The notes under the pieces: generated by a model
Told to the model about the DNA's origin: nothing
The model's input: only the letters and a program-made list of their open reading frames with translations
Databases searched by the model: none
Assembly: GCA_000720995.1 (NCBI GenBank)
Contig: JOEL01000023.1
Coordinates: forward strand, 1-64,000
Length of the DNA stretch: 64,000 nt
Origin: Streptomyces celluloflavus
GTDB taxonomy: Bacteria; Actinomycetota; Actinomycetes; Streptomycetales; Streptomycetaceae
Direction: 5' to 3'
Position numbers and translations under genes: made by a program
Part shown: piece by piece, positions 2,291 to 18,047 of the stretch
Position numbering within the stretch: the first letter of the stretch is position 1
Layout of the letters: each line of letters opens with the position of its first letter

Positions 2291-2550
2291 ACGCCACGTT
2301 GACCGGGCACGGCCCCGTCAGTCTGCGGTGCGCTCCTCAGCTGTGCGACGTGCCTCTGAAGCTGTGCGACGTGCCTCTGACCTGGCGGGACGCTTCTTGA
2401 CCGGGCCATGCCCTTCTTGGCCAGGGGGTGTGCTTCCTGACCAGATGTTGCGTCCCTCGATCGTGCGCCGCGCCTCCTGGTCAGGCGACGTGCACTTCGA
2501 CCGTGGGCCGTGCTTGTCGACCGGACGGTGCGTTCCTCGGCCAGGCGAAT
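2291..2550. repeat. Array of about 13 degenerate 20-bp direct repeats
   Basis: From 2391 to 2550 the sequence divides into eight consecutive 20-bp units, each starting near TGCTTCCT and followed by a CGACC/TGACC core, for example at 2391, 2411, 2431, 2471, 2491 and 2511. Five less regular units extend the array left to about 2291; two of them (2340-2359 and 2361-2380) share a perfect 20-bp sequence. The period is not a multiple of three and no convincing protein runs through it, so it is unlikely to be coding. The remainder of the 2168-2576 spacer holds nothing else I recognise. Confidence 0.7.
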
Positions 2551-2576
2551 TGTGGTGCCGGGGCGGGCTGGTGGGG

Positions 2577-3023: not shown

Positions 3024-3088
3024 GGTGTCCCTTGTTGTGGATCGTGTGGCCCCGAACGTCCTGGGCTTCCTGGGGTCCTGGCGGGCCG

Positions 3089-3671: not shown

Positions 3672-4405
3672 TCAGGCGATCGCGGCGGCGAGGCGTCCGC
3701 CGGTCAGGCTTGCTCGGCCCGTCGGTGAGCCTCTGACCGGTGCGGCGCAAGGGTGAACGCATTCGGCACCCCGGCCACGGCCCGGCGGCCTCGCGGATAC
3801 CGCGCCGGGCACGGCGGCTGGTACGCGTCATGGGCAGCGTTTCAGCGATCCGGATACGGTGGCTTGCCGCTGTGTACGGGAGGGCGTCGGTGTCCCTTGG
3901 GGGCGTCACGTCCCGGGTAACGCGCTCTGCCAGGACACGATGCCCGCACGTCTCGTCCGGCCATGGTGTCGTGGCCGGAAGCCGAAAGGGACGGGACCGA
4001 GGCGGCGGCCCGTCCGAATCCGGTCCGGCGCCGGACCTGCCGTTCGTCGAGGTGCGGGAAGGGGAAGGGAGACGAACGTCCGGAACGGCGTGATCACCAT
4101 TGTCGTACGGACCTTCGTCCTCGTCCGCGCCGTCCGAGGCGCGGCCGCGTTCTGTGCGGCATCAGCGCCGAGCACTCGGATACCGCACCAACGGCCGGGC
4201 GGCCCAGGCGTGCGGCGGTCCAGGGCAGCGCCGTTCTGTACCGTCCGCGCCGACCGACGTGCGGCCATGTTCCGTGCCGGGATCGGCGCCGAGCGCTCGG
4301 ATACCGCACCGACGGTCGTGCGACCGGGGCGTGCGGCCGAGGCGTGCGGCAGTCCAGGGCAGCGCCGCTCCGTACCGCCGCGCGGCCCCCCGTAGAGCTG
4401 TGCCG
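3672..4405. other. Gene-free spacer
   Basis: No frame on either strand has recognisable protein features. The right half (4123-4371) holds the two long diverged repeats listed separately; the left half shows nothing I can name. Confidence 0.6.
4123..4371. repeat. Two diverged ~120-bp direct repeats with an internal palindrome
   Basis: Copies at about 4123-4237 and 4243-4371 share the order GTCCGCGCCG, GCGCCGAGC, CTCGGATACCGCACC, GGCGTGCGGC and GTCCAGGGCAGCGCCG. The second copy contains the perfect palindrome CCGAGCGCTCGG (4289-4300); the first has CCGAGCACTCGG. A fragment of a third copy (GTACCGCCGCGCGGCC) starts at 4372. The repeats sit just beyond the stop codon of the SDR gene at 4406. 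Confidence 0.7.
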
Positions 4406-5317
4406 CTACCGCGCCCCGTAGACCGGCCGTGGTGTCTCGGCGGCGGTGAGGAGTTGGCGGACGGTGGTGCCGGCTTCGGTCGGGGTCCAGCGGGCGCCTT
4501 TGTCGCGGGTCGGGCCGGGGCGCCAGCCCTCCATGACGGTGATGCGGCCGGCCTCCGTCTCGAACACCCGGCCCGTGACGCCCTCCGAGGCGGCGGAGCC
4601 CAGCCATACCACCAGCGGGGAGACGTTCTCTGGGGCCATGGTGTCGAAGCCGCCGGCTTCCGGGGTGGCCATGGTGTCGGCGAAGGTCTCTTCGGTCATC
4701 CGGGTGCGAGCGGCCGGGGCGATGGCGTTGACCTGGATGCCGTAGCGGCCCAGCTCGGCCGCGGATACCAGTGTCAGGCCGAGGATTCCGGCCTTGGCCG
4801 CGGAGTAGTTTCCCTGTCCGACGCTGCCCAACAGGCCCGCACCGGAAGTGGTGTTGACGATCCGGGCTTGCGGTATACGTCCTGCTTTCGCCTCCGCGCG
4901 CCAGTGGGCCGCGGCGTGTTTGAGGGGGAGGAAGTGGCCCTTGAGGTGGACCCGCACGACTGCGTCCCACTCGTCCTCCGCCAGGTTGACCAGCATCCGG
5001 TCGCGGAGGAAGCCCGCGTTGTTGACGAGGGTGTCGAGGCGTCCGTAGGTGTCGAGGGCGGTGGCGATGAGGGAGGCGGCGCCCTGGGTCGTCGCGATAT
5101 CGCCGCCGTGCGCGACGGCTTCGCCACCGGTGGCACGGATCTCCGCGGCCACCTGCTCCGCGGGGCCTTCGCCGCCGCCCGCGCCGTCCAGCCCCACGCC
5201 GAGGTCGTTGACCACGACCCGGGCGCCCTCGGCGGCGAAGGCGAGGGCGTGCGCGCGGCCCAGTCCGCGCCCCGCGCCGGTGACGATGGCGACGCGTCCT
5301 TCGCAGATCCCGGCCAT
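4406..5317 (-). CDS. Short-chain dehydrogenase of the steroid ring C/D cluster (Rv3548c-like)
   Basis: Predicted 303-residue NAD(P)-dependent oxidoreductase. The ATG at 5315-5317 has GAGGAG 8 nt upstream; an alternative ATG at 5344 overlaps the stop of the gene before it (TAATG) and would add nine residues. Features in order: VTGAGRGLGRAHALAFA cofactor motif, NDLGVGLDG, NNAGFLRDRM, then NTTSGAGLLGSVGQGNYSAAKAG with the catalytic Ser and YxxxK. The tail (APENVSPLVVWLGS, GARWTPTEAG) resembles Rv3548c of Mycobacterium tuberculosis, a KstR2-regulon SDR whose exact substrate is not established. It follows a second SDR gene on the same strand, the same order as Rv3549c-Rv3548c. Confidence 0.85.
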   Translation of the reverse strand: MAGICEGRVAIVTGAGRGLGRAHALAFAAEGARVVVNDLGVGLDGAGGGEGPAEQVAAEIRATGGEAVAHGGDIATTQGAASLIATALDTYGRLDTLVNNAGFLRDRMLVNLAEDEWDAVVRVHLKGHFLPLKHAAAHWRAEAKAGRIPQARIVNTTSGAGLLGSVGQGNYSAAKAGILGLTLVSAAELGRYGIQVNAIAPAARTRMTEETFADTMATPEAGGFDTMAPENVSPLVVWLGSAASEGVTGRVFETEAGRITVMEGWRPGPTRDKGARWTPTEAGTTVRQLLTAAETPRPVYGAR

Positions 5318-5330
5318 CCGAGGTCTCCTC

Positions 5331-5360
5331 TCATTACCTGTCATTACCTGTCATTACTTA
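5331..5360. repeat. Three tandem 10-bp repeats at the junction of the two SDR genes
   Basis: TCATTACCTG at 5331-5340 and 5341-5350 is followed by TCATTACTTA. On the coding (minus) strand each unit contains TAATG, an overlapping stop and start. The second unit supplies the TAA stop of the upstream SDR and the alternative ATG at 5344 of the downstream one, so the repeat may help translational coupling. Confidence 0.7.
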
Positions 5361-6174
5361 CTGGTTGCTGTGGGTGGGGGGCACCCCCGGGGCCTCCTCC
5401 GGTATCGGCCGTTGACGCGTCGAGGAAGGCCGGGCGTTCGCCGCCTCCGTGTACCAGGAGGCTCGCGCCGCTCACGTACCCCGCCAGGTCCGAGGCGAGG
5501 AACGCGCACGCCTCGCCGACCTCGGCAGGGGCGGCCAGCCGGGCGAGCGGTACGGTGCGGCCGACCGCGGCGATACCGGCCTCGTCGCCGTAGTGGAGAT
5601 GGGACAGTTCGGTGCGGACCATGCCGAGGGTGAGGGTGTTGACGCGGATCTTCGGGGCCCATTCGACGGCCATGGAGCGGGCGAGGCTGTCGAGGCCCGC
5701 CTTGGCCGCGCCGTATGCGGCGGTGCCGGGCGAAGGGCGGGTGCCGCTGACGCTGCCGATCATGATGATCGAGCCGCCGGATTCCTGATCCGCCATCACC
5801 GCGCGGGCGGCGAGGGACGCGGTCAGCGGTGTGATCAGGTTCAACTCCACCACCCGTGCGGCTTGTTGGGGCGCGGAATCGGCGAGCAGGCGGTACGGCG
5901 TGCCGCCGGCGTTGTTGACGAGGACGTCGAGCCGTCCGTATTCGGCGCGTACGCGGCGGAAGAAGGCGCCGACCGCGTCGGCGTCGCGCAGGTCCAGTTC
6001 GATGTATCGCGCCGTCCGGCCCGCCGCCTCCGGTGTCCGGTCGGGGGGCCTGCGGGCGCAGGCGATGACCTGCGCTCCGGCGTCGAGCAGGGCCGCAGTG
6101 ATCCCCGCGCCGACGCCGCGGGTGCCGCCGGTGACGACCGCGACCCGGCCCGACAGATCGATGGTGAGCGCCAT
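5344..6174 (-). CDS. Short-chain dehydrogenase of the steroid ring C/D cluster (Rv3549c-like)
   Basis: Predicted 276-residue SDR. Start ATG at 6172-6174 opens MALTIDLSGRVAVVTGGTRG, a classical Rossmann start with TGxxxGxG. Further motifs are NNAGGTPYRL, GSVSGTRPSPGTAAYGAAKAG (catalytic Ser, Tyr and Lys) and the C-terminal ASLLVHGGG typical of FabG-like SDRs. A Gly/Pro-rich tail of about 20 residues follows. It is the first gene of a leftward pair, divergent from echA20, with a KstR2-type operator in the 88-bp gap. The same arrangement exists in mycobacteria (Rv3549c against Rv3550). It probably oxidises or reduces a CoA-thioester intermediate of ring C/D breakdown; the exact step is inference. 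Confidence 0.85.
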   Translation of the reverse strand: MALTIDLSGRVAVVTGGTRGVGAGITAALLDAGAQVIACARRPPDRTPEAAGRTARYIELDLRDADAVGAFFRRVRAEYGRLDVLVNNAGGTPYRLLADSAPQQAARVVELNLITPLTASLAARAVMADQESGGSIIMIGSVSGTRPSPGTAAYGAAKAGLDSLARSMAVEWAPKIRVNTLTLGMVRTELSHLHYGDEAGIAAVGRTVPLARLAAPAEVGEACAFLASDLAGYVSGASLLVHGGGERPAFLDASTADTGGGPGGAPHPQQPVSNDR

Positions 6175-6223
6175 GGGGGACCTCCCGCAGCGCGCGGCGC
6201 GCTGCTACCTTCTCATCAACAGC

Positions 6224-6243
6224 ACCTAACAAATGTTTGGTGG
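6224..6243. promoter_or_regulatory. KstR2-type operator between the SDR genes and echA20
   Basis: The core AACAAATGTTTGGT (6228-6241) agrees with the published KstR2 consensus AnCAAGnnCTTGnT at 8 of 10 defined bases. The 20-bp site, read on the minus strand, matches the site at 13641-13660 at 17 of 20 positions. It lies in the divergent promoter gap and would let one repressor control both directions. Identification is by motif only. Confidence 0.75.
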
Positions 6244-6262
6244 AAAGGTAGCTGATCCGCTC

Positions 6263-7204
6263 ATGGGTGTCTCCACCTCTCACCCCGCCCCGCCCTCGGG
6301 TGACGGCGGCATCGCGCTCGTCACGGTCGACTTTCCGCCGGTCAACGCCCTTCCCGTACAGGGCTGGTACGACCTGGCGGAGGCGGTGCGGGCGGCCGGT
6401 CTGGACCCGGGGGTGCGGTGTGTGGTGCTCGCCTCGGCCGGGCGCGGGTTCAATGCCGGAGTCGACATCAAGGAGATGCAGCGGACGGAGGGGCACTCCG
6501 CGCTGATCGGCGCCAACCGCGGTTGCTATGCGGCGTTCGCGGCGGTCTACGACTGCGAAGTGCCGGTCGTCGCGGCCGTGCAGGGCTTCTGCCTGGGCGG
6601 CGGCATCGGACTGGTCGGCAACGCGGACGCGATCGTGGCGAGCGACGACGCGACGTTCGGGCTACCCGAGCTGGACCGCGGCGCGCTGGGCGCGGCCACC
6701 CATCTCGCCCGGCTCGTACCGCCGCATCTGATGCGCACGCTGTACTACACCTCGCGTACGGTCACCGCCCGCGAGCTCCACCGGCACGGTTCCGTCTGGG
6801 AGGTGGTGCCGCGCGAGCGGGTGCTGGACGCGGCGCTGGCGCTGGCGGGTGAGATCGCCGCGAAGGACGGGTACTTGATCCGCCTCGCCAAGGCGTCCAT
6901 CAACGGCATCGATCCGGTCGATGTGCGGCGCAGCTACCGCTTCGAGCAGGGCTTCACCTTCGAGGCGAACCTCAGCGGTATCGCCGACCGGCATCGCGAC
7001 GCTTTCGTCGGCGAAGCGCCGGAGGGAAGACCGGCGGCAAGCGACCAGGTGGCGCGCCAGGAGCCCGGGGAGCCAGGGGGAACGCAGGAGGCGGCGGATC
7101 CGCGAGAGCGCCGGGAGTCGGGGCAGCCCCCGGGGCCGAAAGACGCGACGGCAGCCGCCCCCGCGTCCCCGGGCGGCGCGCAAGGGCACCGCGCGAAGAG
7201 TTGA
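6263..7204 (+). CDS. echA20: Enoyl-CoA hydratase-family ring D hydrolase EchA20
   Basis: Predicted 313-residue crotonase. In mycobacteria EchA20 hydrolyses ring D of the steroid remnant after its CoA activation. Seen here: the crotonase oxyanion-hole motifs ASAGRGFNAGVDIKEM and QGFCLGGGIGL, plus FGLPELDRGALG. I chose the ATG at 6263 because GGAAAGG lies upstream; an earlier ATG at 6233 is inside the operator. The core is about 247 residues, the length of Rv3550, but a hydrophilic low-complexity tail of roughly 65 residues (rich in Pro, Gly, Glu, Arg) follows. It is the first gene of the echA20-ipdA-ipdB-ipdC operon. Confidence 0.88.
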   Translation: MGVSTSHPAPPSGDGGIALVTVDFPPVNALPVQGWYDLAEAVRAAGLDPGVRCVVLASAGRGFNAGVDIKEMQRTEGHSALIGANRGCYAAFAAVYDCEVPVVAAVQGFCLGGGIGLVGNADAIVASDDATFGLPELDRGALGAATHLARLVPPHLMRTLYYTSRTVTARELHRHGSVWEVVPRERVLDAALALAGEIAAKDGYLIRLAKASINGIDPVDVRRSYRFEQGFTFEANLSGIADRHRDAFVGEAPEGRPAASDQVARQEPGEPGGTQEAADPRERRESGQPPGPKDATAAAPASPGGAQGHRAKS

Positions 7205-7236
7205 CCGGCACGGCAGGACGGGTCGAAGGGGCAGAG

Positions 7237-8136
7237 TTGAGCGACAAGACGATGAGTGCCGACGAGGCCGTGGGGCGGCTGGCGAGCGGGATGACGATCG
7301 GGATCGGCGGCTGGGGCTCCCGTCGCAAGCCGATGGCCCTGGTGCGCGCCCTGCTGCGGTCCGAGCTGACCGATCTGACCGTCGTGGCGTACGGCGGCCC
7401 GGATGTGGGGTTGCTGGCCGCCGCGGGACGGATCCGGCGTCTGATCGCGCCGTTCGCCACCCTCGATTCGATCCCCCTCGAACCGCACTTCCGCGCCGCC
7501 CGCCAGCGCGGCACCCTCGAACTGACCGAACTGGACGAGGCGATGTTCATGTGGGGACTGACCGCCGCCGGCCAGCGGCTGCCGTTCATGCCGGTCCGCG
7601 CCGGTCTCGGCTCCGACGTGCTGCGGGTCAACCCGCAGCTGCGGACGGTGACTTCGCCGTACGAGGACGGCGAAGAGCTGGTCGCCGTCCCCGCGCTGCG
7701 GCTGGATGCCGCGCTGGTGCATCTGCACCGTGCGGACGCCCAGGGCAACGGGCAGTATCTGGGCCCCGATCCGTACTTCGACGACCTCTTCTGCGAGGCC
7801 GCGGACGCCGCGTACCTGTCCTGTGAACAGATCGTGGACGGTGCCGAGTTGACGTCTGCGGGCGGGCCGCAGTCGCTGCTGGTCAAGCGGCCGTTCGTCA
7901 CCGGGGTCGTGGCGGCCCCGAACGGTGCGCACTTCACGTCCTGCGACCCGGATTACGGCCGGGACGAGGCGTTCCAGCGGGCGTACGCTTCGGCGGCCGC
8001 GGATCCGGAGGAATGGGCGGCGTTCGTCAAGCGGTTCCTCTCCGGCGACGAGCGGGACTACCAGGCCGCGGTCGCCGCCTTCCACGAGCGGGAGAAGAGT
8101 ACGGAGGAAAAGGGTGCGAAGGGGGTCGGCGCATGA
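7237..8136 (+). CDS. ipdA: Steroid ring C hydrolase, alpha subunit IpdA
   Basis: Predicted 299-residue subunit of the IpdAB heterodimer, a CoA-transferase-like hydrolase that opens steroid ring C on the CoA thioester. The family signature MTIGIGGWGSRRKPMALVRAL near the N-terminus and VVAYGGPDVGLL, PFMPVRAGLGSDVL, QGNGQYLGPDPYFDDLF and NGAHFTSCDPDYGRDE match the mycobacterial enzyme throughout. A TTG at 7237 with AAGGGG 6 nt upstream gives the N-terminus that best fits the family; a start at 7201 overlapping echA20 is possible. It overlaps ipdB by ATGA, so the two subunits are translationally coupled. Confidence 0.9.
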   Translation: MSDKTMSADEAVGRLASGMTIGIGGWGSRRKPMALVRALLRSELTDLTVVAYGGPDVGLLAAAGRIRRLIAPFATLDSIPLEPHFRAARQRGTLELTELDEAMFMWGLTAAGQRLPFMPVRAGLGSDVLRVNPQLRTVTSPYEDGEELVAVPALRLDAALVHLHRADAQGNGQYLGPDPYFDDLFCEAADAAYLSCEQIVDGAELTSAGGPQSLLVKRPFVTGVVAAPNGAHFTSCDPDYGRDEAFQRAYASAAADPEEWAAFVKRFLSGDERDYQAAVAAFHEREKSTEEKGAKGVGA

Positions 8137-8957
8137 GTGCCGCGTCAGCAGCCCCGGGCTCCCCCTCAACGCCCACCTCCTCCGTCACTCCTCCCGCCCC
8201 CATCGCCCCGGCGACCCGTGCCGAATACGCCGTACTGGCCTGCGCCGAGGTGTGGCGCGGCGCGGGTGAGGTGCTCGCCAGTCCCATGGGGACCGTGCCC
8301 TCGATCGGGGCGCGGCTGGCCCGGCTGACCTTCTCCCCCGAGCTGCTGCTCACCAACGGCGAGGCGTTGCTGATCGGCGACACCCCGGCGGTCGGCGCCC
8401 GGTCCGAGGCGACCGAGGGCTGGCTGCCCTACCGTCAGCATCTGGCGCTGGTCGCCACCGGGCGTCGGCACGTCATGATGGGCGCGAGCCAGATCGACCG
8501 CTTCGGCAATCAGAACATCTCCTGTATCGGCGACTGGTCCCGGCCGGCCCGGCAGCTCCTCGGGGTGCGCGGCGCGCCCGCCAACACCGTGAACAATCCG
8601 ACGAGTTACTGGATTCCGCGGCATTCCCCCCGGACCTTCGTCGAGCGGGTCGACATGGTCTGCGGCGTCGGCTACGACCGGGCCGCCGCGGCCGGGCCGT
8701 CCGCGACCCGCTTCCATCGCCTTCCCGATGTCGTCAGCGACCTGGGTGTGTTCGACTTCGCGACGCCGGACCGTACGATGCGGCTGCGTTCGCTGCACCC
8801 CGGTGTGACCGTCGAGCAGGTCCGGCAGGCCACCGGTTTCGAGCTGGTGGTGCCCGCGCGGGTGCCGTTCACCCGGGAGCCGACCGCGGCGGAGCTGCGG
8901 CTGATCCGCGAGGTGATCGACCCCCGGGGGCTGCGCGACCGCGAGGTACGTACATGA
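8133..8957 (+). CDS. ipdB: Steroid ring C hydrolase, beta subunit IpdB
   Basis: Predicted 274-residue partner of IpdA. The ATG overlaps the ipdA stop (ATGA). After an Ala/Ser/Pro-rich start of about 25 residues, the CoA-transferase fold begins at TRAEYAVLACAEVWRGAG. Typical segments are SPMGTVPSIGARLARL, EGWLPYRQHLALVATGRRH, MMGASQIDRFGNQNIS and the Glu-lacking loop seen in hydrolytic members, followed by VSDLGVFDF. Mycobacterial IpdB is about 250 residues, so the N-terminal extension is extra. Cytoplasmic, acts with IpdA on the ring C intermediate. It overlaps ipdC by ATGA at 8954. Confidence 0.9.
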   Translation: MSAASAAPGSPSTPTSSVTPPAPIAPATRAEYAVLACAEVWRGAGEVLASPMGTVPSIGARLARLTFSPELLLTNGEALLIGDTPAVGARSEATEGWLPYRQHLALVATGRRHVMMGASQIDRFGNQNISCIGDWSRPARQLLGVRGAPANTVNNPTSYWIPRHSPRTFVERVDMVCGVGYDRAAAAGPSATRFHRLPDVVSDLGVFDFATPDRTMRLRSLHPGVTVEQVRQATGFELVVPARVPFTREPTAAELRLIREVIDPRGLRDREVRT

Positions 8958-10171
8958 CCGCCGGCCGCGAGCACGACACGCCACCACCGCCTGCCCCGAA
9001 GCCGCCGCCCCTGCGGACCGCGCTGACCGAACTGGTCGGCGTACGGCACCCCGTCGTCCAGACCGGGATGGGGTGGGTGGCCGGGCCGCGGCTGGTGTCC
9101 GCCACCGCGAACGCCGGGGCGCTGGGGATTCTGGCCTCCGCCACGATGACGGTCGGGGAGCTGCGGGCGGCGGTCCGCGAGGTGCGGTCCCGTACGGACG
9201 CGCCGTTCGGCGTCAATCTGCGCGCGGACGCGGGCGACGCCGGGGAGCGGGTGCGGGTCGTCATCGAGGAGGGCGTACGGGTCGCCTCGTTCGCGCTGGC
9301 CCCCTCCCGGGAGCTGATCGCGCGCCTCAAGGACGCGGGGGTCGTGGTGATCCCGTCGATCGGGGCGCGACGGCACGCGGAGAAGGTGGCGGCGTGGGGT
9401 GCCGACGCCGTGCTCGTCCAGGGGGGCGAGGGCGGCGGGCACACCGGTGACGTGGCGACGAGCGTGCTGCTGCCGCAGGTCGTGGACGCGGTCGGTATCC
9501 CCGTCATCGCGGCGGGCGGTTTCCGCGACGGTCGGGGCCTGGTGGCCGCGCTCGCCTTCGGGGCGTGCGGGGTCGCCATGGGCACCCGTTTCCTGCTGAC
9601 GTCGGACAGCACCGTCCCCGACGCGGTCAAGGCGCGCTATCTCGCGGCGTCGGTCAAGGACATCACCGTCACGACGAAGGTGGACGGGCTGCCGCACCGG
9701 ATGCTGCGCACGGATCTCGTCGACGCGCTGGAGCGGAGCGGGCGTCCGGCGGCGCTGCTACGGGCCGTACGGCACACGGCGGCGTTCCGCAAACGGTCCG
9801 GGATGCGCTGGGCGGAGCTGATCCGCGACGGTCTGGCCATGAAGCACGGCAAGGAGCTGAGCTGGAGTCAGCTGTTGCTGGCCGCCAATACGCCGATGAT
9901 GCTGCGGGCCGCGATGGTCGAGGGGCGGCCGGATCTGGGCGTGATGGCCTCGGGCCAGATAGCCGGGCTGATCGAGGACCTGCCATCCTGCGCGGAGCTG
10001 GTGGACCGCATCATGACGGAGGCGTATGAGACCTTGGCCCGTCTTCCCGGTCCCCCGGGCCACACCGACGGCTCCGGCCACACCGGCGGCTCCGGCCACT
10101 CCGTCCTCTCGCGCCCATCGGGTCCATCGGGTCCGCCGGGACCGCCGGGACCACGCCCCCCGCACGGCTGA
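8954..10171 (+). CDS. ipdC: Flavin-dependent oxidoreductase IpdC (nitronate monooxygenase family)
   Basis: Predicted 405-residue FMN enzyme of the 2-nitropropane dioxygenase/nitronate monooxygenase fold. In the KstR2 pathway IpdC is needed for handling HIP-CoA before ring opening. Seen: VVQTGMGWVAGPRLVSATANAGALGILAS at the start of the barrel, then QGGEGGGHTGDVATSVLLPQ and AAGGFRDGRGLVAALAFGA, which hold the phosphate-binding glycines and the HTG catalytic segment. The core ends near residue 365; the remaining 40 residues are Gly-Pro-Ser rich with collagen-like GPSGPPGPPGP triplets, absent from the roughly 355-residue mycobacterial protein. Last gene of the echA20 operon. Confidence 0.88.
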   Translation: MTAGREHDTPPPPAPKPPPLRTALTELVGVRHPVVQTGMGWVAGPRLVSATANAGALGILASATMTVGELRAAVREVRSRTDAPFGVNLRADAGDAGERVRVVIEEGVRVASFALAPSRELIARLKDAGVVVIPSIGARRHAEKVAAWGADAVLVQGGEGGGHTGDVATSVLLPQVVDAVGIPVIAAGGFRDGRGLVAALAFGACGVAMGTRFLLTSDSTVPDAVKARYLAASVKDITVTTKVDGLPHRMLRTDLVDALERSGRPAALLRAVRHTAAFRKRSGMRWAELIRDGLAMKHGKELSWSQLLLAANTPMMLRAAMVEGRPDLGVMASGQIAGLIEDLPSCAELVDRIMTEAYETLARLPGPPGHTDGSGHTGGSGHSVLSRPSGPSGPPGPPGPRPPHG

Positions 10172-10467
10172 CACAGGTGTTCCCGTGCCCCGGCACCGTC
10201 CCCGGGCCCCTCCCCCATGGCCCGTGCGGTACCCCGGGCTGATTTTCTCCCCGGGCACGGGGACAATGGGCGACGGAGAACGGACGCGTGAAGGCGGCCT
10301 GGACGCCCTTCCCGGGATCACCGTCCCGATCCGGCCCTCCTGACCGACCCGCCCGAGCCCGCCCACCCGAGATGACCAGCCCGAGACAACCGATCCGAGA
10401 CAACCAGCCTGAGATGACCTTCCTGGGATCGCCTTCGCAGGAGTTTTCCTCGGGGAGGAGAGATGAC

Positions 10468-10779
10468 GTGCGGAAGATCATCGCCATGGTGCTGGCGGTC
10501 GTGGCCTGCGGTGCTTCGCTGACGCTGACCACGGCCTCGGACGCGGTCGCCGCCGGGCGGTCGCCGCAGTGCGTCAAGGTACGGAAGTTCTTCAACCGGG
10601 GTCACCAGCGCTATGTCCGGCTGACGAACCTGTGCGCCGGGCGCGCCGCGTGCTACGTCATCGTCCTTCCGCACCGCCCGGACCCGCGCGGCCGCCTCGC
10701 CAAGGCCGCGACGCGGGACATCCGCTACGCCACGACGACGGCGCCGCGCGCCCTGTACGTGAAGAACACGCACTGCTGA
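10468..10779 (+). CDS. Small secreted four-cysteine protein
   Basis: Predicted 103-residue protein. The GTG at 10468 follows a GGGGAGGAG-type site (10453-10461). Residues 1-29 form a signal peptide (basic start, MVLAVVACGASLTL, cleavage probably after AVAA). The mature protein of about 74 residues is basic, has Cys at about 35, 56, 62 and 103, and probably forms two disulfides outside the cell. I do not recognise a family beyond small secreted actinomycete proteins. It lies between the ipdC and fadA6 genes, but its own leader of about 290 bp with CGAGACAACC-type repeats (10371-10405) suggests independent expression. A role in steroid metabolism is not supported. Confidence 0.65.
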   Translation: MRKIIAMVLAVVACGASLTLTTASDAVAAGRSPQCVKVRKFFNRGHQRYVRLTNLCAGRAACYVIVLPHRPDPRGRLAKAATRDIRYATTTAPRALYVKNTHC

Positions 10780-10838
10780 GCTGACGGACCGGAGCTGCCG
10801 GGCCGGGAGTCCGGAACGCCGGAACCGGAGGCCGGGGC

Positions 10839-12041
10839 TCAGAGCCGTTCGATGATGGTGACGTTGGCCTGGCCGCCGCCCTCGCACATGGTCTGGAGGC
10901 CGTAGCGGCCGCCCGTGCGCTCCAGTTCGTGGAGGAGGGTCGTCATCAGCTTGGTGCCCGTCGCGCCGAGGGGGTGGCCCAGGGCGATGGCGCCGCCGTT
11001 GACGTTGACCTTGCCGGGGTCGGCGCCGGTTTCCTTGAGCCAGGCGAGGACCACGGACGCGAACGCCTCGTTGATCTCGACCAGATCGATCGCGTCGAGG
11101 GTCAGGCCGGTCTTCTTCAGCGCGTGTGCGGTGGCCGGGATGGGTGCGGTGAGCATCCGGATCGGGTCCTCACCGCGTACCGACAGGTGGTGGATGCGGG
11201 CGCGCGGGGTGAGCCCGTGGTCGCGTACGGCGCGTTCGCTCGCGAGCAGCATCGCGGCGGCCCCGTCGGAGACCTGGGAGGAGACCCCGGCGGTCAGCCG
11301 GCCGCCTTCGACCACCGGTTTGAGGCCCGCCATCTTCTCCAGGGAGGTGTCACGCCGCGGCCCTTCGTCCACCGCGACGGCCCCGTACGGCACGATTTCG
11401 CGGGTGAAACGGCCCTCGTCGATGGCGCGGACCGCGCGCTGATGTGAGCGCAGCGCGAACTCCTCCATATCGCGGCGCGAGATGCCCCATTTCTCGGCGA
11501 TCAGTTCGGCACCGTGGAACTGGTTCACCGGCCGGTCGCCGTACCGGGCGCGCCAGCCCCGGCTGCCCGCGAACGGGCCTTCGGTGAGGCCGAGCGGTGC
11601 CGCGGCCTGGCGGCTGGCGAAGGCGATCGGGATCATCGACATGTTCTGGGTACCGCCCGCGACGACCAGGTCCTGGGTGCCGGAGAGCACGCCCTGCGCC
11701 GCGAAGTGCACGGCCTGCTGGGAGGAGCCGCACTGGCGGTCGACGGTGACGCCCGGTACCTCTTCGGGGAGCCCGGCCGCCAGCCAGGCGGTGCGGGCGA
11801 TATCGCCGGCCTGGGGGCCGACCGTGTCCAGGCAGCCGAAGACGACGTCCTCGACGGCGGCCGGGTCCACGTCCGTGCGGGCCATCAGCGCCTTGAGGAC
11901 GTGCGCGCCGAGGTCGGCGGGGTGCACGGCGGCGAGTCCGCCGTTGCGTCTGCCGACCGGGGTGCGCAGGGCGTCGATGATGTACGCCTCGCGTGGTGCG
12001 TGGCGCGCGGTGTGCTCGGCCGACTCGTGCGGCGTGGCCAT
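10839..12041 (-). CDS. fadA6: Thiolase FadA6
   Basis: Predicted 400-residue acetyl-CoA acyltransferase that performs thiolytic cleavage late in steroid ring C/D breakdown. The ATG at 12039-12041 is preceded by GGGAG. Catalytic residues are visible: nucleophilic Cys in VDRQCGSSQQAVHFAAQG, His in NVNGGAIALGHPLGATG, and the second Cys in MCEGGGQANV. NEAFASVVLAW supplies the conserved Asn-Glu. It lies downstream of kstR2 and ipdF on the same strand (gaps of 113 and 68 bp), matching the mycobacterial fadA6-kstR2-ipdF block, and is probably transcribed from the operator-controlled promoter at 13641. Confidence 0.9.
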   Translation of the reverse strand: MATPHESAEHTARHAPREAYIIDALRTPVGRRNGGLAAVHPADLGAHVLKALMARTDVDPAAVEDVVFGCLDTVGPQAGDIARTAWLAAGLPEEVPGVTVDRQCGSSQQAVHFAAQGVLSGTQDLVVAGGTQNMSMIPIAFASRQAAAPLGLTEGPFAGSRGWRARYGDRPVNQFHGAELIAEKWGISRRDMEEFALRSHQRAVRAIDEGRFTREIVPYGAVAVDEGPRRDTSLEKMAGLKPVVEGGRLTAGVSSQVSDGAAAMLLASERAVRDHGLTPRARIHHLSVRGEDPIRMLTAPIPATAHALKKTGLTLDAIDLVEINEAFASVVLAWLKETGADPGKVNVNGGAIALGHPLGATGTKLMTTLLHELERTGGRYGLQTMCEGGGQANVTIIERL

Positions 12042-12154
12042 GGCGACTCCCTGGGTTGTGGGGTCTCGGGGTCCTGAGGTCTCGGGTTCCTCTGGGCGTT
12101 GGCCTTCGGTGGTCGGTGGTGAGTGATCGGTGGCCGGTGGTCGGTGGCGGGTCG

Positions 12155-12769
12155 TCAGTCCCGACGGGCGATGCCGTCCAGGACCATCGAGAGGTACTGG
12201 CGGGCGATCTCCTCGGGGCTGTGGTGTCCGTCCGGCCGGTACCAGCTCGCCGCGACCCAGACGGTGTCGCGGACGAATCGGTAGGTGAGCCGGATGTCGA
12301 GGTCTGCGCGGAACGCTCCGTCGGCCACGCCCCGCTCCAGCGTGCCGAGCCATGCCTTCTCGAACTTCTGCTGGGATTCGGTGAGATAGCCGAAGCGGGG
12401 CTGCGCGGCGAGGTGTTTGGACTCCTTCTGGTAGATGGCGACCGCGGCGCGGTGCCGGTCGATCTCCCGGAACGACTCGGTGACCAGGGCTTCGATGGTC
12501 TCCCTGGGGCCGAGGTCGGCCGCGAGCACGGCGTCGTAGCCGTCCCACAGCTCGGTCAGGAAGGTGGACAGGATCTCGTCCACCATCGATTCCTTGGAGT
12601 CGAAGTGGTAGTAGAGGCTGCCCGCGAGCATCCCGGCCTCGTCCGCGATGCGGCGGACGGTGGTGGCGTTGTAACCCTGCGCGGCGAAGACCTCCGCCGC
12701 GGTGTTCAGCAGTTCGCGGCGGCGCTCCGGGGTCGCGCTCACGGTCGTCTTCTTCTTTGCGGTCGGCAC
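12155..12769 (-). CDS. kstR2: TetR-family repressor KstR2
   Basis: Predicted 204-residue repressor. KstR2 in mycobacteria and Rhodococcus represses the ring C/D genes and is released by HIP-CoA. The GTG at 12767-12769 gives a start MPTAKKKT, close to the usual 200-residue length; longer upstream reading is antisense to nothing and lacks family features. The helix-turn-helix reads TTVRRIADEAGMLAGSLYYHF at about residues 37-57, and the ligand domain includes YQKESKHLAAQPRFGYL and FVRDTVWVAASWYRPDG. Located between ipdF and fadA6, with KstR2-type sites in both divergent promoters of the cluster, which supports the specific name. Confidence 0.88.
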   Translation of the reverse strand: MPTAKKKTTVSATPERRRELLNTAAEVFAAQGYNATTVRRIADEAGMLAGSLYYHFDSKESMVDEILSTFLTELWDGYDAVLAADLGPRETIEALVTESFREIDRHRAAVAIYQKESKHLAAQPRFGYLTESQQKFEKAWLGTLERGVADGAFRADLDIRLTYRFVRDTVWVAASWYRPDGHHSPEEIARQYLSMVLDGIARRD

Positions 12770-12837
12770 GTGGCCATTGTCGCTCCCCGTATCGGGCCTG
12801 TTCACAGGCGTGCGCCCGCCCCGGCTCCGGGCCGGTG

Positions 12838-13626
12838 TCAGGCGTGCTGGCTGCTGACCGGGACGACCTCGCCGGTCATGTACGAGGAGTAGTCGCTGGC
12901 GAGGAAGACGATGACGTTGGCGACCTCCCAGGGCTCGGCGTAGCGCCCGAACGCCTCGCGGGAGGTGAGTTCGTCGAGCAGTTCCTCGGTGGTGACCTTG
13001 GCGAGGTGCGGGTGCATGGCCAGGCTGGGCGAGACGGCGTTGACGCGGACCCCGTAGGCGGCCGCTTCGGCCGCGGCGCAGCGGGTCAGCGCCATCACGC
13101 CGGCTTTGGCGGCGGCGTAGTGGGCCTGGCCGCGCTGCGCGCGCCAGCCGACGACCGAGGCGTTGTTGACGATCACCCCGCCCCCGGCCGCGTCGCGCAT
13201 CCGGCGCAGGGCGGCCCGGGTGCAGCGGAAGGTGCCGTTGAGGGTGACGTCGAGGACCTTGTCCCATTGGTCGTCGGTCATCTCGACGAGATCGGCGGTG
13301 CCGCCGAGGCCGGCGTTGTTGATGACGATGTCCAGTCGGCCGTGCCGCTGCTGTGCGAGGTCGAAGAGCGCGCCGACCTGCGCCTCGTCGGTGACGTCGC
13401 AGGGCAGGGCGGCGACCCGCCGGGCGCCGAACTCCGCGGCGAGCCGGTCCTCGGATTCCTTGAGGCGGCGGGCGTGGGCGTCGGAGAGGACGACGTCCGC
13501 GCCCTCCTCCAGGAGCTTGCGGACGGTGGCGCCCCCGATGCCGGCGCCCGCGGCGGCGGTGACGACGGCCGTCCGGCCGGTCAGCAGGCCGTGCCCGGGA
13601 ACGTAGGAAGGCTTCTCGGTCGTCAT
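12838..13626 (-). CDS. ipdF: Short-chain dehydrogenase IpdF
   Basis: Predicted 262-residue SDR, similar in length and motifs to Rv3559c. In Mycobacterium and Rhodococcus IpdF oxidises the 5-hydroxy form of HIP-CoA to the ketone. Motifs: VVTAAAGAGIGGATVRKLLEEG (cofactor loop), PCDVTDEAQV, NNAGLGGTADLVEM, NNASVVGWRAQRGQAHYAAAKAG (Ser, Tyr, Lys) and ASDYSSYMTGEVVPVSS. The ATG at 13624-13626 sits 15 bp from the operator at 13641-13660, so the gene is first in the leftward ipdF-kstR2-fadA6 group and divergent from the acyl-CoA dehydrogenase genes. Confidence 0.9.
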   Translation of the reverse strand: MTTEKPSYVPGHGLLTGRTAVVTAAAGAGIGGATVRKLLEEGADVVLSDAHARRLKESEDRLAAEFGARRVAALPCDVTDEAQVGALFDLAQQRHGRLDIVINNAGLGGTADLVEMTDDQWDKVLDVTLNGTFRCTRAALRRMRDAAGGGVIVNNASVVGWRAQRGQAHYAAAKAGVMALTRCAAAEAAAYGVRVNAVSPSLAMHPHLAKVTTEELLDELTSREAFGRYAEPWEVANVIVFLASDYSSYMTGEVVPVSSQHA

Positions 13627-13640
13627 GGCCGTACGCTAAC

Positions 13641-13660
13641 CTACCAAACACTTGTTAGGG
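13641..13660. promoter_or_regulatory. KstR2-type operator between ipdF and fadE31
   Basis: The core ACCAAACACTTGTT (13643-13656) matches the published KstR2 consensus AnCAAGnnCTTGnT at 9 of 10 defined bases. The larger dyad is CCAAACA and TGTTAGG separated by CT. It lies in the 105-bp divergent gap and is nearly the same 20-bp sequence as the site upstream of echA20. Confidence 0.8.
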
Positions 13661-13731
13661 AACGGTTGTCAGGGAACACTCGTCGGGAAATTGCGCGCCA
13701 TCAAGGTCATCGAGAGAGAGGCTGCGCGTCG

Positions 13732-14901
13732 ATGGATCTCGGACACGCCCCACAGGACGAGGAGTTCCGGTACGCGGCACGGTCCTGGCTCGCCGCCCGG
13801 GTGCCCGGCACGCCCCTGCCGTCGCTGGAGACCGCCGAGGGTTTCGCCGCCCACCGGGAGTGGGAGCGCACCCTGGCCGCGGACCGCTGGTCGGTGGTCT
13901 CGTGGCCCGAGGAGTACGGCGGCCGGGGCGCGTCCCTCGCGCGCTGGCTGATCTTCGAGGAGGAGTACTACGCCGCGCAGGCGCCCGGCCGGGTCAGCCA
14001 GAACGGCATCAGCCTCCTCGCCCCGACCCTCTTCGCCCACGGCTCCCCCGCCCAGCTCGCCCGCGTGCTCCCGCCGATGGCGAGCGGCGAGGTGATCTGG
14101 GCGCAAGCCTGGTCGGAGCCGGAGGCCGGTTCCGATCTCGCCGCACTGCGCTCCACGGCTGTACGGACGGCGGGCGGCTGGCTGCTCAGCGGGCAGAAGA
14201 CCTGGTCCTCGCGGGCGGCCTTCGCGGACCGCGCGTTCGGCCTGTTCCGCAGCCATCCGGACGCGGACCGGCCGCACCGCGGGCTGACCTACCTGATGTT
14301 CGATCTCGCCGCGCCGGGCGTGACCGTACGGCCCATCGGGCGGCTGGACGGCAAGCCGGCCTTCGCCGAACTCTTCCTCGACGAGGTCTTCGTCCCGGAC
14401 GAGGACGTGATCGGCGAGCCGGGCCAGGGGTGGCGGGTCGCGATGAGCACGGCGGGCAACGAGCGCGGACTCACCCTGCGCAGCCCCGGCCGTTTCACGG
14501 CGTCCGCCGACCGCCTTGTCGCGCTGTGGCGGCAACGTGCCGATCCGGCGGATACGGCACTGCGCGACCGGGTCGCCGACGCGGTGATCGGCGCCCGCGC
14601 CTACCATCTCTTCGCCCGCGCCGGCGCCGCCCGGCTCGCCACGGGCGACGACCTGGGCGCCGAGTCCAGCCTGAACAAGATCTTCTGGTCCGAACTCGAC
14701 ATCGCCCTGCACGAGACCGCCCTCGACCTCCTCGGCGCCGCGGGCGAACTCGCCGACAGCGCCGACGAGGCGCCGGATCACGGCAGTTGGGCGGCGGGCT
14801 GGACCTTCGCCCTGGCCGGTCCGATCTACGCGGGCACCAATGAGATCCAGCGCGACATCATCGCCGAGCGGCTGCTCGGACTGCCCAAGGGGCGACGGTG
14901 A
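13732..14901 (+). CDS. fadE31: Acyl-CoA dehydrogenase, FadE31-like
   Basis: Predicted 389-residue flavoprotein. It resembles mycobacterial FadE31, the larger partner of alpha2-beta2 steroid acyl-CoA dehydrogenases: SWPEEYGGRGASLARWLIFEEEYY, APTLFAHGSPAQLARVLPPMASGE, WAQAWSEPEAGSDLAALRSTA, GWLLSGQKTWSS, NERGLTLRSPGRF and the end PIYAGTNEIQRDIIAERLLGLP. At the usual catalytic-Glu position of MCAD-type enzymes (YEGT) it has YAGT, normal for this subgroup. ATG at 13732, weak leader. First gene of a rightward pair with a second, shorter-motif dehydrogenase 62 bp downstream. It acts on a CoA intermediate of ring C/D breakdown; the exact substrate is inferred. Confidence 0.82.
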   Translation: MDLGHAPQDEEFRYAARSWLAARVPGTPLPSLETAEGFAAHREWERTLAADRWSVVSWPEEYGGRGASLARWLIFEEEYYAAQAPGRVSQNGISLLAPTLFAHGSPAQLARVLPPMASGEVIWAQAWSEPEAGSDLAALRSTAVRTAGGWLLSGQKTWSSRAAFADRAFGLFRSHPDADRPHRGLTYLMFDLAAPGVTVRPIGRLDGKPAFAELFLDEVFVPDEDVIGEPGQGWRVAMSTAGNERGLTLRSPGRFTASADRLVALWRQRADPADTALRDRVADAVIGARAYHLFARAGAARLATGDDLGAESSLNKIFWSELDIALHETALDLLGAAGELADSADEAPDHGSWAAGWTFALAGPIYAGTNEIQRDIIAERLLGLPKGRR

Positions 14902-14962
14902 AGCGCGGCGCCGGGCGGCACACCGGCGGCCGCGGCACGACGGGACGAGAGGGCGGCCGAAG

Positions 14963-16105
14963 GTGACGTTTCTCCTCGACGACGAGCAGCGCGAGTTCGG
15001 GCGGACGCTCGACCGGATGCTGGGCGCGGCGGACATCGCGGGCGCCGTACGCGCCTGGGCGGTGGACGACACCGGGCCGGGCCGGAAGGTATGGCAACGG
15101 CTGGCGGATCTGGGGGTGTTCGCGCTGGCAGTACCCGAGGAGCACGCCGGGTCAGGGTTCCTCCCCGTCGAACTCGCGGTCGCCTTCGTGGAGTTGGGGC
15201 GCCACGGCGTGCCGGGTCCGGTCGTCGAGACCGTCGCCGCGGCGGCCCTGCTGCGGCGGCTGGGCGATCCGGCGCCGAGCGCGCGATGGCTGCCGGGGAT
15301 CGCGACGGGCGGCCATCTCGTGTCGTACGCGGACACCTACGGGGAGACGGTCGGGACGGACGGCACAGCCGGGACGGACGGTACGGGCGAGGGCGGGCAC
15401 CCGGGTGGGGACGCGGGTGGCGGGCGCGGGCCGTACGCGCTGGACGCGCATACCGCCGATACGACGTTCGTCGTGGCGGGCGACCGACTGCTGTCCGCGA
15501 CGGGCCACGGGCCGGTCCAGCCGTCGCTCGACCCGGCGCGGCGGCTCGCCCGCCCCGCGTACGGCGGCGAGGTGCTGGCGAGCGGGCCCGCGGTCCGGGC
15601 CGCGTCCCGGCACGCGGTCGATGTCGCGGCCTCCCTCACCGCCGCCCAGGCGCTCGGGGCCGGGCGGCGGCTGCTGGCCGACACCGTGACCTACGTACGG
15701 CAGCGGAAGCAGTTCGGGGTGGCGGTCGGCTCCTTCCAGGCGGTGCGGCACCGGCTGGCCGATGCGCTGGTGGCCCTGGAGTTCGCACAGCCGCTGGTGT
15801 TCGGGGCGGCGGTGGCGCTGGCGGCGGAGACGGGGGCGGACGGGCAACGGGGTCGGCTCGTGGCGACGGAGGGTGCCGGGCGCGCGGCGGCCGTCCGGCG
15901 GGAGGTGGCGGCGGCGAAGGTGGCGGCGGGCGAGGCGGCGTACGGGGCGGCCCGCGCCGCGCTCCAGTTGCACGGCGCGATCGGCTACACCGACGAACTG
16001 GATCTGTCGCTGTGGATCCGCAAGGCGCGGGCGCTGCGGACCGCCTGGGGAACCCCCTCGGAGTGCCGGGCCCGCGTGCTGACCGGGCAGGATATCTTTT
16101 ACTAG
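14963..16105 (+). CDS. Acyl-CoA dehydrogenase subunit, FadE32/FadE33-like
   Basis: Predicted 380-residue protein from GTG 14963. It starts VTFLLDDEQREFGRTLDRML and continues LGVFALAVPEEHAGSGFLPVELAVAFVELGRHGVPGP, the pattern of the small partner subunits FadE32 and FadE33, which pair with FadE31 in an alpha2-beta2 enzyme. The C-terminal half has VRQRKQFGVAVGSFQAVRHRLAD and LQLHGAIGYTDELDLSLWIRKA. Mycobacterial partners are about 320 residues; here a Gly/Thr/Asp-rich insert (about residues 130-155) and a second Ala/Gly-rich stretch add length. Its TAG stop is part of a 14-bp palindrome. Confidence 0.8.
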   Translation: MTFLLDDEQREFGRTLDRMLGAADIAGAVRAWAVDDTGPGRKVWQRLADLGVFALAVPEEHAGSGFLPVELAVAFVELGRHGVPGPVVETVAAAALLRRLGDPAPSARWLPGIATGGHLVSYADTYGETVGTDGTAGTDGTGEGGHPGGDAGGGRGPYALDAHTADTTFVVAGDRLLSATGHGPVQPSLDPARRLARPAYGGEVLASGPAVRAASRHAVDVAASLTAAQALGAGRRLLADTVTYVRQRKQFGVAVGSFQAVRHRLADALVALEFAQPLVFGAAVALAAETGADGQRGRLVATEGAGRAAAVRREVAAAKVAAGEAAYGAARAALQLHGAIGYTDELDLSLWIRKARALRTAWGTPSECRARVLTGQDIFY

Positions 16106-16130: not shown

Positions 16131-18047
16131 ATGGGGAAGCACGCCAAGCCTGCCGGGAAGAGAGCCGCCGGCCTGCCCGGGAGTGGGACACCGACAAGCA
16201 CGACAGCGGGGAGCGCGGCACCGGGAGGGGCGGCGGCGAGGGGCGGAACGCCGGCCGGTGGCACGGCGGGGCGTCCGGTGCGCTGCCGTCCATTGCCGGT
16301 CCGGAGTACCGTGCGGCTGCGCCGTCCCGTCGACATCTGGCACAAGCCGGCGCTCAGCGCGTTCGTCGCGATGGCGATCTCCGATGCCACGCTGTTCGCG
16401 CTGGACCAGTTGAATCTGGTGCTCTACACCTCGGCCGGGGCGCTGTGCGCGCTGTACGGGCACGGTCTGCCGTACGCCGCCCGCGCCCGCACCCTGCCCT
16501 GGGTGGTGCTCGGGATGGTCGCGAGTCTCGGCCTCGCGCTGACCGCCGGGGCGCTGATCTCCTCGACCGCGCTGCTCGTCGGGTGCGCCGCACTGCTCGC
16601 CGCGGTCCACAAGATGGTCTGCGACGCGACCCGCATCGGCCCGCCGGGGAACCTCATCCCGACCTTCATCGCCGCGTCGGCGTTCTTCGTACCGCAGCGG
16701 CTCGGGCAGGTGCCGGTGCACCTGGCGACGGCGCTCGGCGCCGGCGCGCTCGCCTGGCTGGTGTGCATGGCGCCGGCGCTGGTCCGGCCACGGGGCCCCG
16801 AGCGGATCGCCACCGCTCGCGCGCTGGAGGCGGCCGCCGCGCTGCTGCGGACGGCCCCCGGCCCCGGCGGGTCCGGCCCTCCCGGGACCGGGCACGCCCG
16901 GCACGCGACCGCGGCCGCGGTGAACGCCGCCTGGCACACCCTCTTCCTGGTCCCGGCGCGCACCCCGTCGAAGGCGGCGGCACGGGCCGGTCTGGAGCGG
17001 CTGCTCGTCCGTGCCGAGTCGACGCTCGGATGGCCGGCCGGGGTGGCCCGGCACGCCGGAGAATGCGCCGGCGAGCACGGTGGCGTCGAGGCCGGCCGAC
17101 TCGACGGCTGGGCGCGCGAACTGCGCCGCGGGCGCCCGCTCCCCGAGGTCGCGCTCTCCACGGCGCAGGCCGAGGAGTTGGCGGGCGTGGCGGCGGAGGG
17201 TGCGGCGTGGGCCGGTTCCGGGACCGGGGAGAGCGGGCTGCGGCGGCCCGCCCCCGGCCGTCCGCGCGGGATACGGGCGGTGGCGGCACGCCTCGCCCCC
17301 GGGTCGCCGCTGCTGCCCATCGGCGCGCGGGTCGCGGCGGGATGTGCGCTGGCGGGCTGGACGTCGATGGCGGTCGGCGTCGGACACCCGTACTGGGCCG
17401 TGGTCACCGCGGCCTCGATCTACCAGGCCAACACCACCCTCTCCTGGCAGCGCGCACTGCAACGCACCCTCGGCAATCTGCTCGGCCTGCTGCTGTTCAC
17501 CGCCCTGCTGCCGCTGATCCACACCGGCCGTCCGGCGATGATCGCGCTCGCCCTGGCCTGCCAGCTCGGCACCGAGGCGTGCATCACCCGCAACTACTGG
17601 CTCGGCTCGGTGTGGGTGACGCCGATGGCGCTGCTGCTGACCGAGTTCGGCAGCCGGCAGCCGGCCGGGACGCTGGTCCGCGACCGCTGGATCGACACCG
17701 TGGTGGGTGCGGCGGTGGGTCTGACCTGCTGTGTACTGGTCACCAACCGGCGCGCCGCGAACCGTATCGACAGCGCTCTGGAGCGCGTCGCGGACGCCGA
17801 GGCCGCGGCGCTCCGGCTGCTCACCGCGGGAGCGGTGCCCGGGGCCCACGACGCGCGGGAGACCGGCTGGGCCCGGGACCGCCTCACCACCTGTCTGGTC
17901 GAGCTCCGCGAGGCGGTCGAGGTGGCGGCCGGCGAGTGGTGGCAGCGGGCCCTCCCGGAGGAGCGCATCGCCCACGCGGAACAGCAGGGCCACCGCACCC
18001 TGGCCGGTCTCGTCCGCCGGCTCCCGGCCCCCGCGCCGACCGTCTGA
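16131..18047 (+). CDS. FUSC-family membrane protein (aromatic acid exporter-like)
   Basis: Predicted 638-residue inner-membrane protein. After a Lys/Gly/Ala-rich cytoplasmic start of about 60 residues come two membrane blocks: FVAMAISDATLFALDQ through ALAWLVCMAPALV, and GARVAAGCALAGWTSMAVGV through VGAAVGLTCCVLVTNRRAA, separated by a soluble domain. HPYWAVVTAASIYQANTTLSW is the conserved FUSC signature in the second block. Family members export fusaric acid, p-hydroxybenzoate and similar organic acids, or are of unknown function. It starts 25 bp after the steroid dehydrogenase gene and is followed by a MarR gene, so export of an acidic steroid intermediate is a reasonable but unproved idea. 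Confidence 0.8.
   Translation: MGKHAKPAGKRAAGLPGSGTPTSTTAGSAAPGGAAARGGTPAGGTAGRPVRCRPLPVRSTVRLRRPVDIWHKPALSAFVAMAISDATLFALDQLNLVLYTSAGALCALYGHGLPYAARARTLPWVVLGMVASLGLALTAGALISSTALLVGCAALLAAVHKMVCDATRIGPPGNLIPTFIAASAFFVPQRLGQVPVHLATALGAGALAWLVCMAPALVRPRGPERIATARALEAAAALLRTAPGPGGSGPPGTGHARHATAAAVNAAWHTLFLVPARTPSKAAARAGLERLLVRAESTLGWPAGVARHAGECAGEHGGVEAGRLDGWARELRRGRPLPEVALSTAQAEELAGVAAEGAAWAGSGTGESGLRRPAPGRPRGIRAVAARLAPGSPLLPIGARVAAGCALAGWTSMAVGVGHPYWAVVTAASIYQANTTLSWQRALQRTLGNLLGLLLFTALLPLIHTGRPAMIALALACQLGTEACITRNYWLGSVWVTPMALLLTEFGSRQPAGTLVRDRWIDTVVGAAVGLTCCVLVTNRRAANRIDSALERVADAEAAALRLLTAGAVPGAHDARETGWARDRLTTCLVELREAVEVAAGEWWQRALPEERIAHAEQQGHRTLAGLVRRLPAPAPTV

Follow-up and report, generated by a model that had tools for sequence, protein, structure and literature searches.

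A predicted KstR2-controlled steroid ring C/D degradation module in Streptomyces celluloflavus, with its first steps probably encoded at a second, unlinked locus

Gene content of the cluster

The sequence analysed here, referred to below as the window, comprises the 64,000 nucleotides at the start of contig JOEL01000023.1 (C23) of Streptomyces celluloflavus, whose 8.68 Mb genome is assembled in 193 contigs. Positions 4406 to 16105 contain a cluster of genes that a first-pass annotation had described as a steroid ring C/D degradation cluster, with gene content and partial order matching the KstR2 regulon. Every gene named in that annotation was found as an open frame, and the match is borne out by these frames, by protein family assignments and by structural relatives. 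Among the best 80 matches to IpdB, 76 record titles named Streptomyces, the first being S. piniterrae with 83% identity.

Two short-chain dehydrogenase/reductase (SDR) genes on the reverse strand are divergent from echA20-ipdA-ipdB-ipdC on the forward strand, while fadA6-kstR2-ipdF on the reverse strand are divergent from two forward-strand acyl-CoA dehydrogenase genes. Gene starts were inferred, as for echA20 (whose frame opens at 6233, within predicted operator A), ipdB (with an ATG about one codon further in), fadA6, kstR2 and both dehydrogenase genes. The curated NCBIfam cut-off was passed by five of the proteins. These are SDR1 (4406-5344; PRK07791, 493 bits against 373) and SDR2 (5344-6174; PRK07856, 380 bits against 255), which by position are the counterparts of Rv3548c and Rv3549c, the predicted ring D hydrolase EchA20 (6263-7204; PRK07938, 410 bits against 260), the FadA6 thiolase (10839-12041; PRK07801, 709 bits against 591), and the IpdF dehydrogenase (12838-13626; PRK07831, 456 bits against 336). 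SDR1 is also 67-71% identical to SDRs adjoining ipdA in Nocardia and Tsukamurella. In the same profile search IpdA, IpdB, IpdC and KstR2 remained below every NCBIfam cut-off; above Pfam cut-offs IpdA and IpdB were assigned to CoA_trans, KstR2 to TetR_N/TetR_C_24, and IpdC, the predicted flavin-dependent reductase (8954-10171, forward strand), to NMO with 287 bits. IpdC is 66-70% identical to its namesakes in three reference records, and EchA20, IpdC, IpdF and FadA6, all present, show 66-74% identity to the reference-record genes in most comparisons.

The cluster resembles the KstR2 regulon of Mycobacterium and Rhodococcus (Rv3548c-Rv3564) in the SDR pair divergent from echA20-ipdABC, in the grouping of fadA6, kstR2 and ipdF, in the presence of fadE31-fadE32, and in a palindromic operator of the same plan. 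It differs in lacking fadD3, fadE30 (ipdE1) and fadE33 (ipdE2), in the direct divergence of fadE31-fadE32 from ipdF, and in having two operators rather than three. The clusters of Proteobacteria for the degradation of HIP, a steroid C/D-ring remnant, such as the scd genes of Comamonas and those of Pseudomonas, are credited with the same reactions in a review, which states that KstR2 homologues are absent there, unlike in the window cluster (PMC8399759).

The surroundings of the cluster include a DDE transposase gene (PF01609; 331-1539) near the contig start just upstream, an interval with no convincing gene (1540-4400), and a gene for a FUSC-domain membrane protein immediately 3' of fadE32 (16131-18047). 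Further along the window are nitrate reductase genes (21652-28449), encoding a molybdopterin alpha subunit (21652-25389) and a gamma subunit (27697-28449), and a gene for a GMC oxidoreductase (60737-62335).

IpdAB and KstR2 as steroid-type proteins

The predicted alpha and beta subunits of COCHEA-CoA hydrolase, IpdA (7201-8136) and IpdB (8130-8957), both on the forward strand, have their best solved relatives in 6co6 chain A (E 2.1e-101) and chain B (E 4.5e-97), respectively. Matches to 6co6 and 6con range from E 1e-96 to 1e-101 for IpdA and from 1e-85 to 1e-97 for IpdB. The depositors titled these entries "CoA-transferase"; we take them to be the published IpdAB structures. Glutaconate CoA-transferase (1poi) is a far weaker relative, with E values of 3e-24 for IpdA and 2.1e-14 for IpdB. 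IpdA moreover retains a Glu that is replaced by Ala in the 6coj chain and is presumably the catalytic Glu105. Best matches to unrelated CoA-transferases or crotonases, the outcome that would have spoken against the first-pass assignment, were not observed. By sequence and structural similarity, IpdAB is of the steroid ring-cleaving type and not a general CoA-transferase.

The predicted repressor KstR2 (12155-12769, reverse strand) has as structural relatives 2ibd (E 5.5e-67), deposited as a "possible transcriptional regulator" and presumably the Rhodococcus KstR2, and an entry that its depositors named KstR2, 4w97 (E 6.5e-56, aligned over residues 14-202). It retains an Arg and a Trp that align with the motif FIRDTTW of 4w97; we assume this Arg and Trp to correspond to ligand residues 162 and 166.

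Predicted KstR2 operators

The palindrome CTAACAA[A/G]TGTTTGGT is present in both divergent promoters, where KstR2 operators are predicted. Operator A (CTAACAAATGTTTGGT; 6226-6241, forward strand), in the SDR2/echA20 intergenic region, has two mismatches to AnCAAGnnCTTGnT, given as the mycobacterial KstR2 consensus by Kendall 2010 (PMC3068626). Operator B (13643-13658, reverse strand), between ipdF and the first dehydrogenase gene, is the sole one-mismatch match to this consensus in the window. Two-mismatch matches occur at the echA20 site and at 16 other places, so that the consensus alone would not pick out the echA20 site; its conservation does.

In 80 related loci of up to 20.8 kb each, with at most two mismatches allowed, the operator was found in 58 of 58 measurable SDR2/echA20 promoters and in 27 of 27 measurable ipdF/fadE31 promoters; the remaining 22 and 53 loci failed the distance or homology conditions and are outside these counts. 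The 80 loci contain 151 sites (70 loci have two, 8 have one, 1 has three and 1 has none), and no site arose in two Markov simulations matched in length and dinucleotide composition. Operators are present at both promoters in S. celluloflavus and in five of the five other genomes for which both promoters were fetched. Scanning the window for CAAGNNCTTG with one mismatch allowed gave a chance-level result (12 found, 8.85 expected), and the longer operator motif was derived from the two sites of the window itself. The case for the operators thus consists in position, conservation and the longer motif, the short scan being no better than chance.

Dehydrogenase identity and a second locus

The two acyl-CoA dehydrogenase genes of the cluster were considered as ipdE1 and ipdE2, and this assignment was rejected. 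The first (13732-14901, forward strand) encodes a protein 68% identical to FadE31 of Nocardia farcinica and 41% to its IpdE1, and the product of the second (14963-16105, forward strand) is 44% identical to FadE32 and 33% to IpdE2. The Nocardia names follow gene order in that genome and Table 1 of PMC5380842; the name IpdE2 additionally follows an NCBIfam match below the cut-off (296 bits against 450). With the dehydrogenases identified as FadE31-like and FadE32-like, the first turn of the pathway (FadD3, IpdE1, IpdE2) is lacking from the window. The first-pass description of a compact version is supported as regards the identity of the ring C/D module; the cluster does not encode the complete pathway, and activation and the first beta-oxidation appear to be encoded at a second locus.

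Relatives of fadD3, ipdE1 and ipdE2, which are not in the window cluster under KstR2, are located on another contig, C26, and have no KstR2 site. The IpdE1 homologue (C26:3-1004) is 62% identical to Nocardia IpdE1, the next best match in the genome reaching 42%. The FadD3 homologue (C26:34920-36515) shows 51% identity to Nocardia FadD3 and tops 22 matches in the genome, the others having 34-37% over comparable length and partial ones up to 43%; it also exceeds the curated cut-off of the FadD3 family (783 against 657 bits). Between ipdE1 and fadD3 are genes for a zinc alcohol dehydrogenase, a major facilitator superfamily (MFS) transporter, a flavin reductase, an enoyl-CoA hydratase, an ADP-forming acyl-CoA ligase, two thiolase/lipid-transfer proteins, an IpdE2-like dehydrogenase, a deazaflavin-type reductase, a TetR regulator and a ChsH2-like protein. 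In the regions fetched from six other genomes, all of these intervening genes were recovered in six of six, apart from the MFS transporter (four of six), and the segment of C26 from about 3.7 to 13.6 kb has no counterpart in these regions. In genome G090 the second locus is 3.86 Mb away from ipdA.

The steps of side-chain removal are listed in a review (PMC8399759) as CoA ligation, a heterotetrameric dehydrogenase, a hydratase, a dehydrogenase and a thiolase, and the second locus holds a candidate for each of them. The Ltp2-like and ChsH2-like genes, both adjoining fadD3, may take part in HIP side-chain removal; their products are 48% and 34% identical to N. farcinica proteins whose genes were taken, by position, as the side-chain operon of that organism.

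The second locus (C26:1-40000) encodes a TetR_C_38 regulator beside ipdE1 and fadD3. It contains 3 to 7 palindromes CTGAC-N5-GTCAG in each genome, where simulation gives a mean of at most 0.2, and all seven genomes have one of them at the promoter of fadD3. The repetition of these palindromes suggests that the locus forms a regulon of its own.

Co-occurrence of the two loci

Genomes were labelled as IpdA-positive or IpdA-negative by a genus-wide search of 392 genomes, and subsets were selected, chiefly by low contig number and high completeness. IpdE1 (E<=1e-90) was found in 40 of 40 IpdA-positive and one of 40 IpdA-negative genomes; at a relaxed threshold of 1e-60, three more IpdA-negative genomes had matches of 41-47%. 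The IpdE1 of the 40 positive genomes is of the core type in 31 and a shortened core-type match in three, while the six genomes without the core type all have a second type at 61-63% identity, which in four of them is about 6 kb from ipdA. FadD3 (E<=1e-110) was present in 26 of 26 positive and one of 24 negative genomes, the core-type gene being in two distant pieces in the positive genome G012. The Ltp2-like gene (E<=1e-100) was found in eight of eight positive genomes and in none of 24 negative ones, and the IpdE2-like gene (E<=1e-50) in seven of eight and two of 24. Fisher tests that ignore relatedness gave p values of 2e-13 for FadD3 and 8e-22 for IpdE1. In the best tree built from the GroEL sequences of 30 genomes, IpdA requires eight changes, four of them forced by supported branches, and core-type FadD3 agrees with IpdA in each of the four supported independent pairs.

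The remote fadD3/ipdE1 locus could instead serve a separate pathway, for example for phenylpropanoids or other acyl-CoA compounds, its co-occurrence with IpdA reflecting shared ancestry and HIP being activated by another ligase. A FadD3-like ligase of Streptomyces, possibly identical with the remote FadD3, has reportedly been studied as a cinnamate:CoA ligase. The TetR gene and palindromes of the second locus, its zero KstR2 sites, the small number of independent comparisons and the genome G144, which carries core-type IpdE1 without IpdA, speak for a separate pathway. Such a pathway is nevertheless unlikely in view of the agreement of FadD3 with IpdA in every independent pair counted, the position of the remote FadD3 above its family cut-off and ahead of all other matches in the genome, and the occurrence of the second IpdE1 type in all six genomes without the core type.

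Several observations weigh against the reading of a KstR2-controlled HIP module with its first steps at a second locus. The KstR2 motif, searched with up to three mismatches, is absent from the second locus in S. celluloflavus and six other genomes; with another TetR regulator and its own palindromes there, FadD3 would be outside the KstR2 regulon, unlike in Mycobacterium. The IpdE2-like protein is weak, being 38% identical to Nocardia IpdE2 and scoring 178 bits against a cut-off of 450, and at E 1e-50 its gene is missing in one of the eight positive genomes and weakly present in two of the 24 negative ones. Besides G144, genome G105 carries a FadD3 of 55% and related dehydrogenases without IpdA. 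The supported branches offer four independent contrasts (sign test, p 0.125), and the test cannot reach 0.05 because the independent pairs are so few. The ipdE1 gene of S. celluloflavus is truncated by the end of C26, so that linkage of the two loci is not readable in this genome. In genome G326 (C1:402000-417000, locus L053) the SDR pair and echA20-ipdABC were observed; fadA6, kstR2, ipdF and both dehydrogenase genes were not found inside the 15 kb fetched, and the cluster may therefore be split in this genome.

Distribution in Streptomyces and ring A/B degradation

The first-pass annotation noted that the pathway is best known from Mycobacterium and Rhodococcus; in Streptomyces the cluster is not unusual. 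IpdA (E<=1e-20) was detected in 290 of 392 genomes; 13 matches are weak (about 1e-26 to 1e-31), leaving 277 strong ones, the strength bands being counted by eye. The ring-A-cleaving enzyme HsaC, by comparison, exceeded the curated cut-off of 450 bits in none of the 392 genomes. HsaC-like proteins of 329-387 bits are present in 38 genomes, all among the 277; in the other 239 of the 277 the ring C/D marker is present and no HsaC-like protein reaches 329 bits. Weaker extradiol dioxygenases (up to 290 bits) occur and could include divergent HsaC. This distribution fits a genome survey that scored 55 of 57 Streptomyces as being without the steroid pathway (PMC4810484). The 80 ipd loci, within their fetched lengths, contain HsaC in none, FadD3 in none and IpdE1 of 61-72% in 30. 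A protein matching the EchA13-like protein of N. farcinica, with a median identity of 74%, was found in 40 of these 80 loci (L098-L177). Taken together, the EchA13-like and IpdE1 genes indicate that some lineages retain a fuller cluster.

In S. celluloflavus the best match to the HsaC model had an E value of 1.8e-8 (five of ten candidates scored) in a search that did not extend to KstD, KshA, HsaA, HsaD or KstR; the N. farcinica HsaC used as control scored 577 bits. No match to N. farcinica HsaA or HsaC was found in the 80 kb of C26 that were read. The failure to find this ring A/B marker distinguishes the genome from Mycobacterium and Rhodococcus. It also differs from Streptomyces with the full pathway, such as G307 and G318, which have the same ipd genes and an IpdA 79-80% identical; there an HsaC-like gene adjoins the ipd cluster, and second-type ipdE1 (61-64%) and fadD3 (53-56%) are near ipdA. 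The genome of the window shows none of these.

It is improbable, given these results and the survey scores, that the strain degrades whole steroids with divergent or missed ring A/B enzymes and that the cluster is merely the end of that pathway, even though all 38 genomes with an HsaC-like protein have IpdA, several with the two genes about 10-22 kb apart, the second locus of S. celluloflavus encodes an HsaB-like flavin reductase (48%), and the search of this genome covered HsaC alone among the ring A/B genes. The true substrate might also be a hydrindane-type acid other than HIP, from plant, hopanoid or polyketide sources, that is fed into the same ring-opening steps. The 239 genomes with strong IpdA and no comparable HsaC-like protein are compatible with this, as are enzymes of the second locus for which the list of KstR2-regulated Mycobacterium genes has no equivalent. 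There is little likelihood of such a substrate replacing HIP when the repressor KstR2, its operator and all of the ring-opening enzymes are shared with the steroid system, and when HIP metabolism by a streptomycete is on record: a 1977 report on Streptomyces rubescens, in which MOODA was formed from HIP, is cited in PMC5380842.

The module thus is ordinary for the genus and mostly uncoupled from HsaC-type ring-A cleavage, which suggests HIP scavenging. What is less expected is its separation from fadD3 and ipdE1, together with the absence of a strong HsaC-like gene in most carriers. Of the growth substrates proposed in the first-pass annotation, sterol or bile-acid remnants such as HIP, a substrate at the level of HIP is supported by homology, gene order, operator sequence and the 1977 report; growth of the strain on whole sterols finds no support in the HsaC search. 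With a key ring A/B gene not found in its genome, the strain may feed on steroid remains that other microbes leave behind. For bile-acid degraders, a review (PMC8399759) discusses cross-feeding and intermediates that occur transiently outside the cell. A search of open-access full texts retrieved no account of a ring C/D module being common in Streptomyces that lack ring A/B degradation, which is not proof of absence in print.

Proposed pathway and its significance

Taken together, the data indicate that the cluster is probably a real catabolic module for rings C and D (HIP) under the control of KstR2, with its first steps encoded at the second, unlinked locus. Gene identities, conserved operators and the co-occurrence of the two loci were computed here, and activity in the strain is predicted. 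HIP, presumably released by other organisms, would enter the cell through a putative transporter and be converted to HIP-CoA by the remote FadD3. HIP-CoA is the effector of KstR2 in Mycobacterium and Rhodococcus, and here it would lift KstR2 off its two operators, derepressing four units, namely the SDR pair, echA20-ipdABC, ipdF-kstR2-fadA6 and fadE31-fadE32. The remote IpdE1 with its IpdE2-like partner, and the hydratase, dehydrogenase and thiolase of the second locus, would shorten the side chain to give 5-OH-HIC-CoA.

The later steps are modelled on enzymes of Mycobacterium, Rhodococcus and Pseudomonas as described in PMC5380842. There IpdF and IpdC yield HIEC-CoA, ring D is cleaved by EchA20 and ring C by IpdAB, and MOODA-CoA, which arises through a thiolase (FadA6 or another), is dehydrogenated by FadE32. 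In S. celluloflavus IpdF and IpdC would likewise form HIEC-CoA, EchA20 and then IpdAB would open rings D and C, FadA6 would release acetyl-CoA to leave MOODA-CoA, and FadE31-FadE32 would start its last beta-oxidation.

For the genus as a whole, it can be proposed tentatively that in most Streptomyces HIP catabolism is uncoupled from ring A/B degradation and encoded at two unlinked loci under two repressors, which are gained and lost together, and that these bacteria are specialist scavengers of HIP-type remnants that other steroid degraders release, or of related bicyclic acids. In this two-repressor scheme KstR2 would govern ring opening, and the other TetR regulator activation and side-chain removal. 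Separate control of FadD3 also makes one ask how KstR2 can be induced, its ligand being made by an enzyme outside the regulon. Should the later half of the pathway be retained widely in the absence of the earlier one, HIP may be the stage at which steroid carbon is handed from one soil bacterium to another, and surveys of steroid pathways would leave uncounted a catabolic role of an intensively studied genus.

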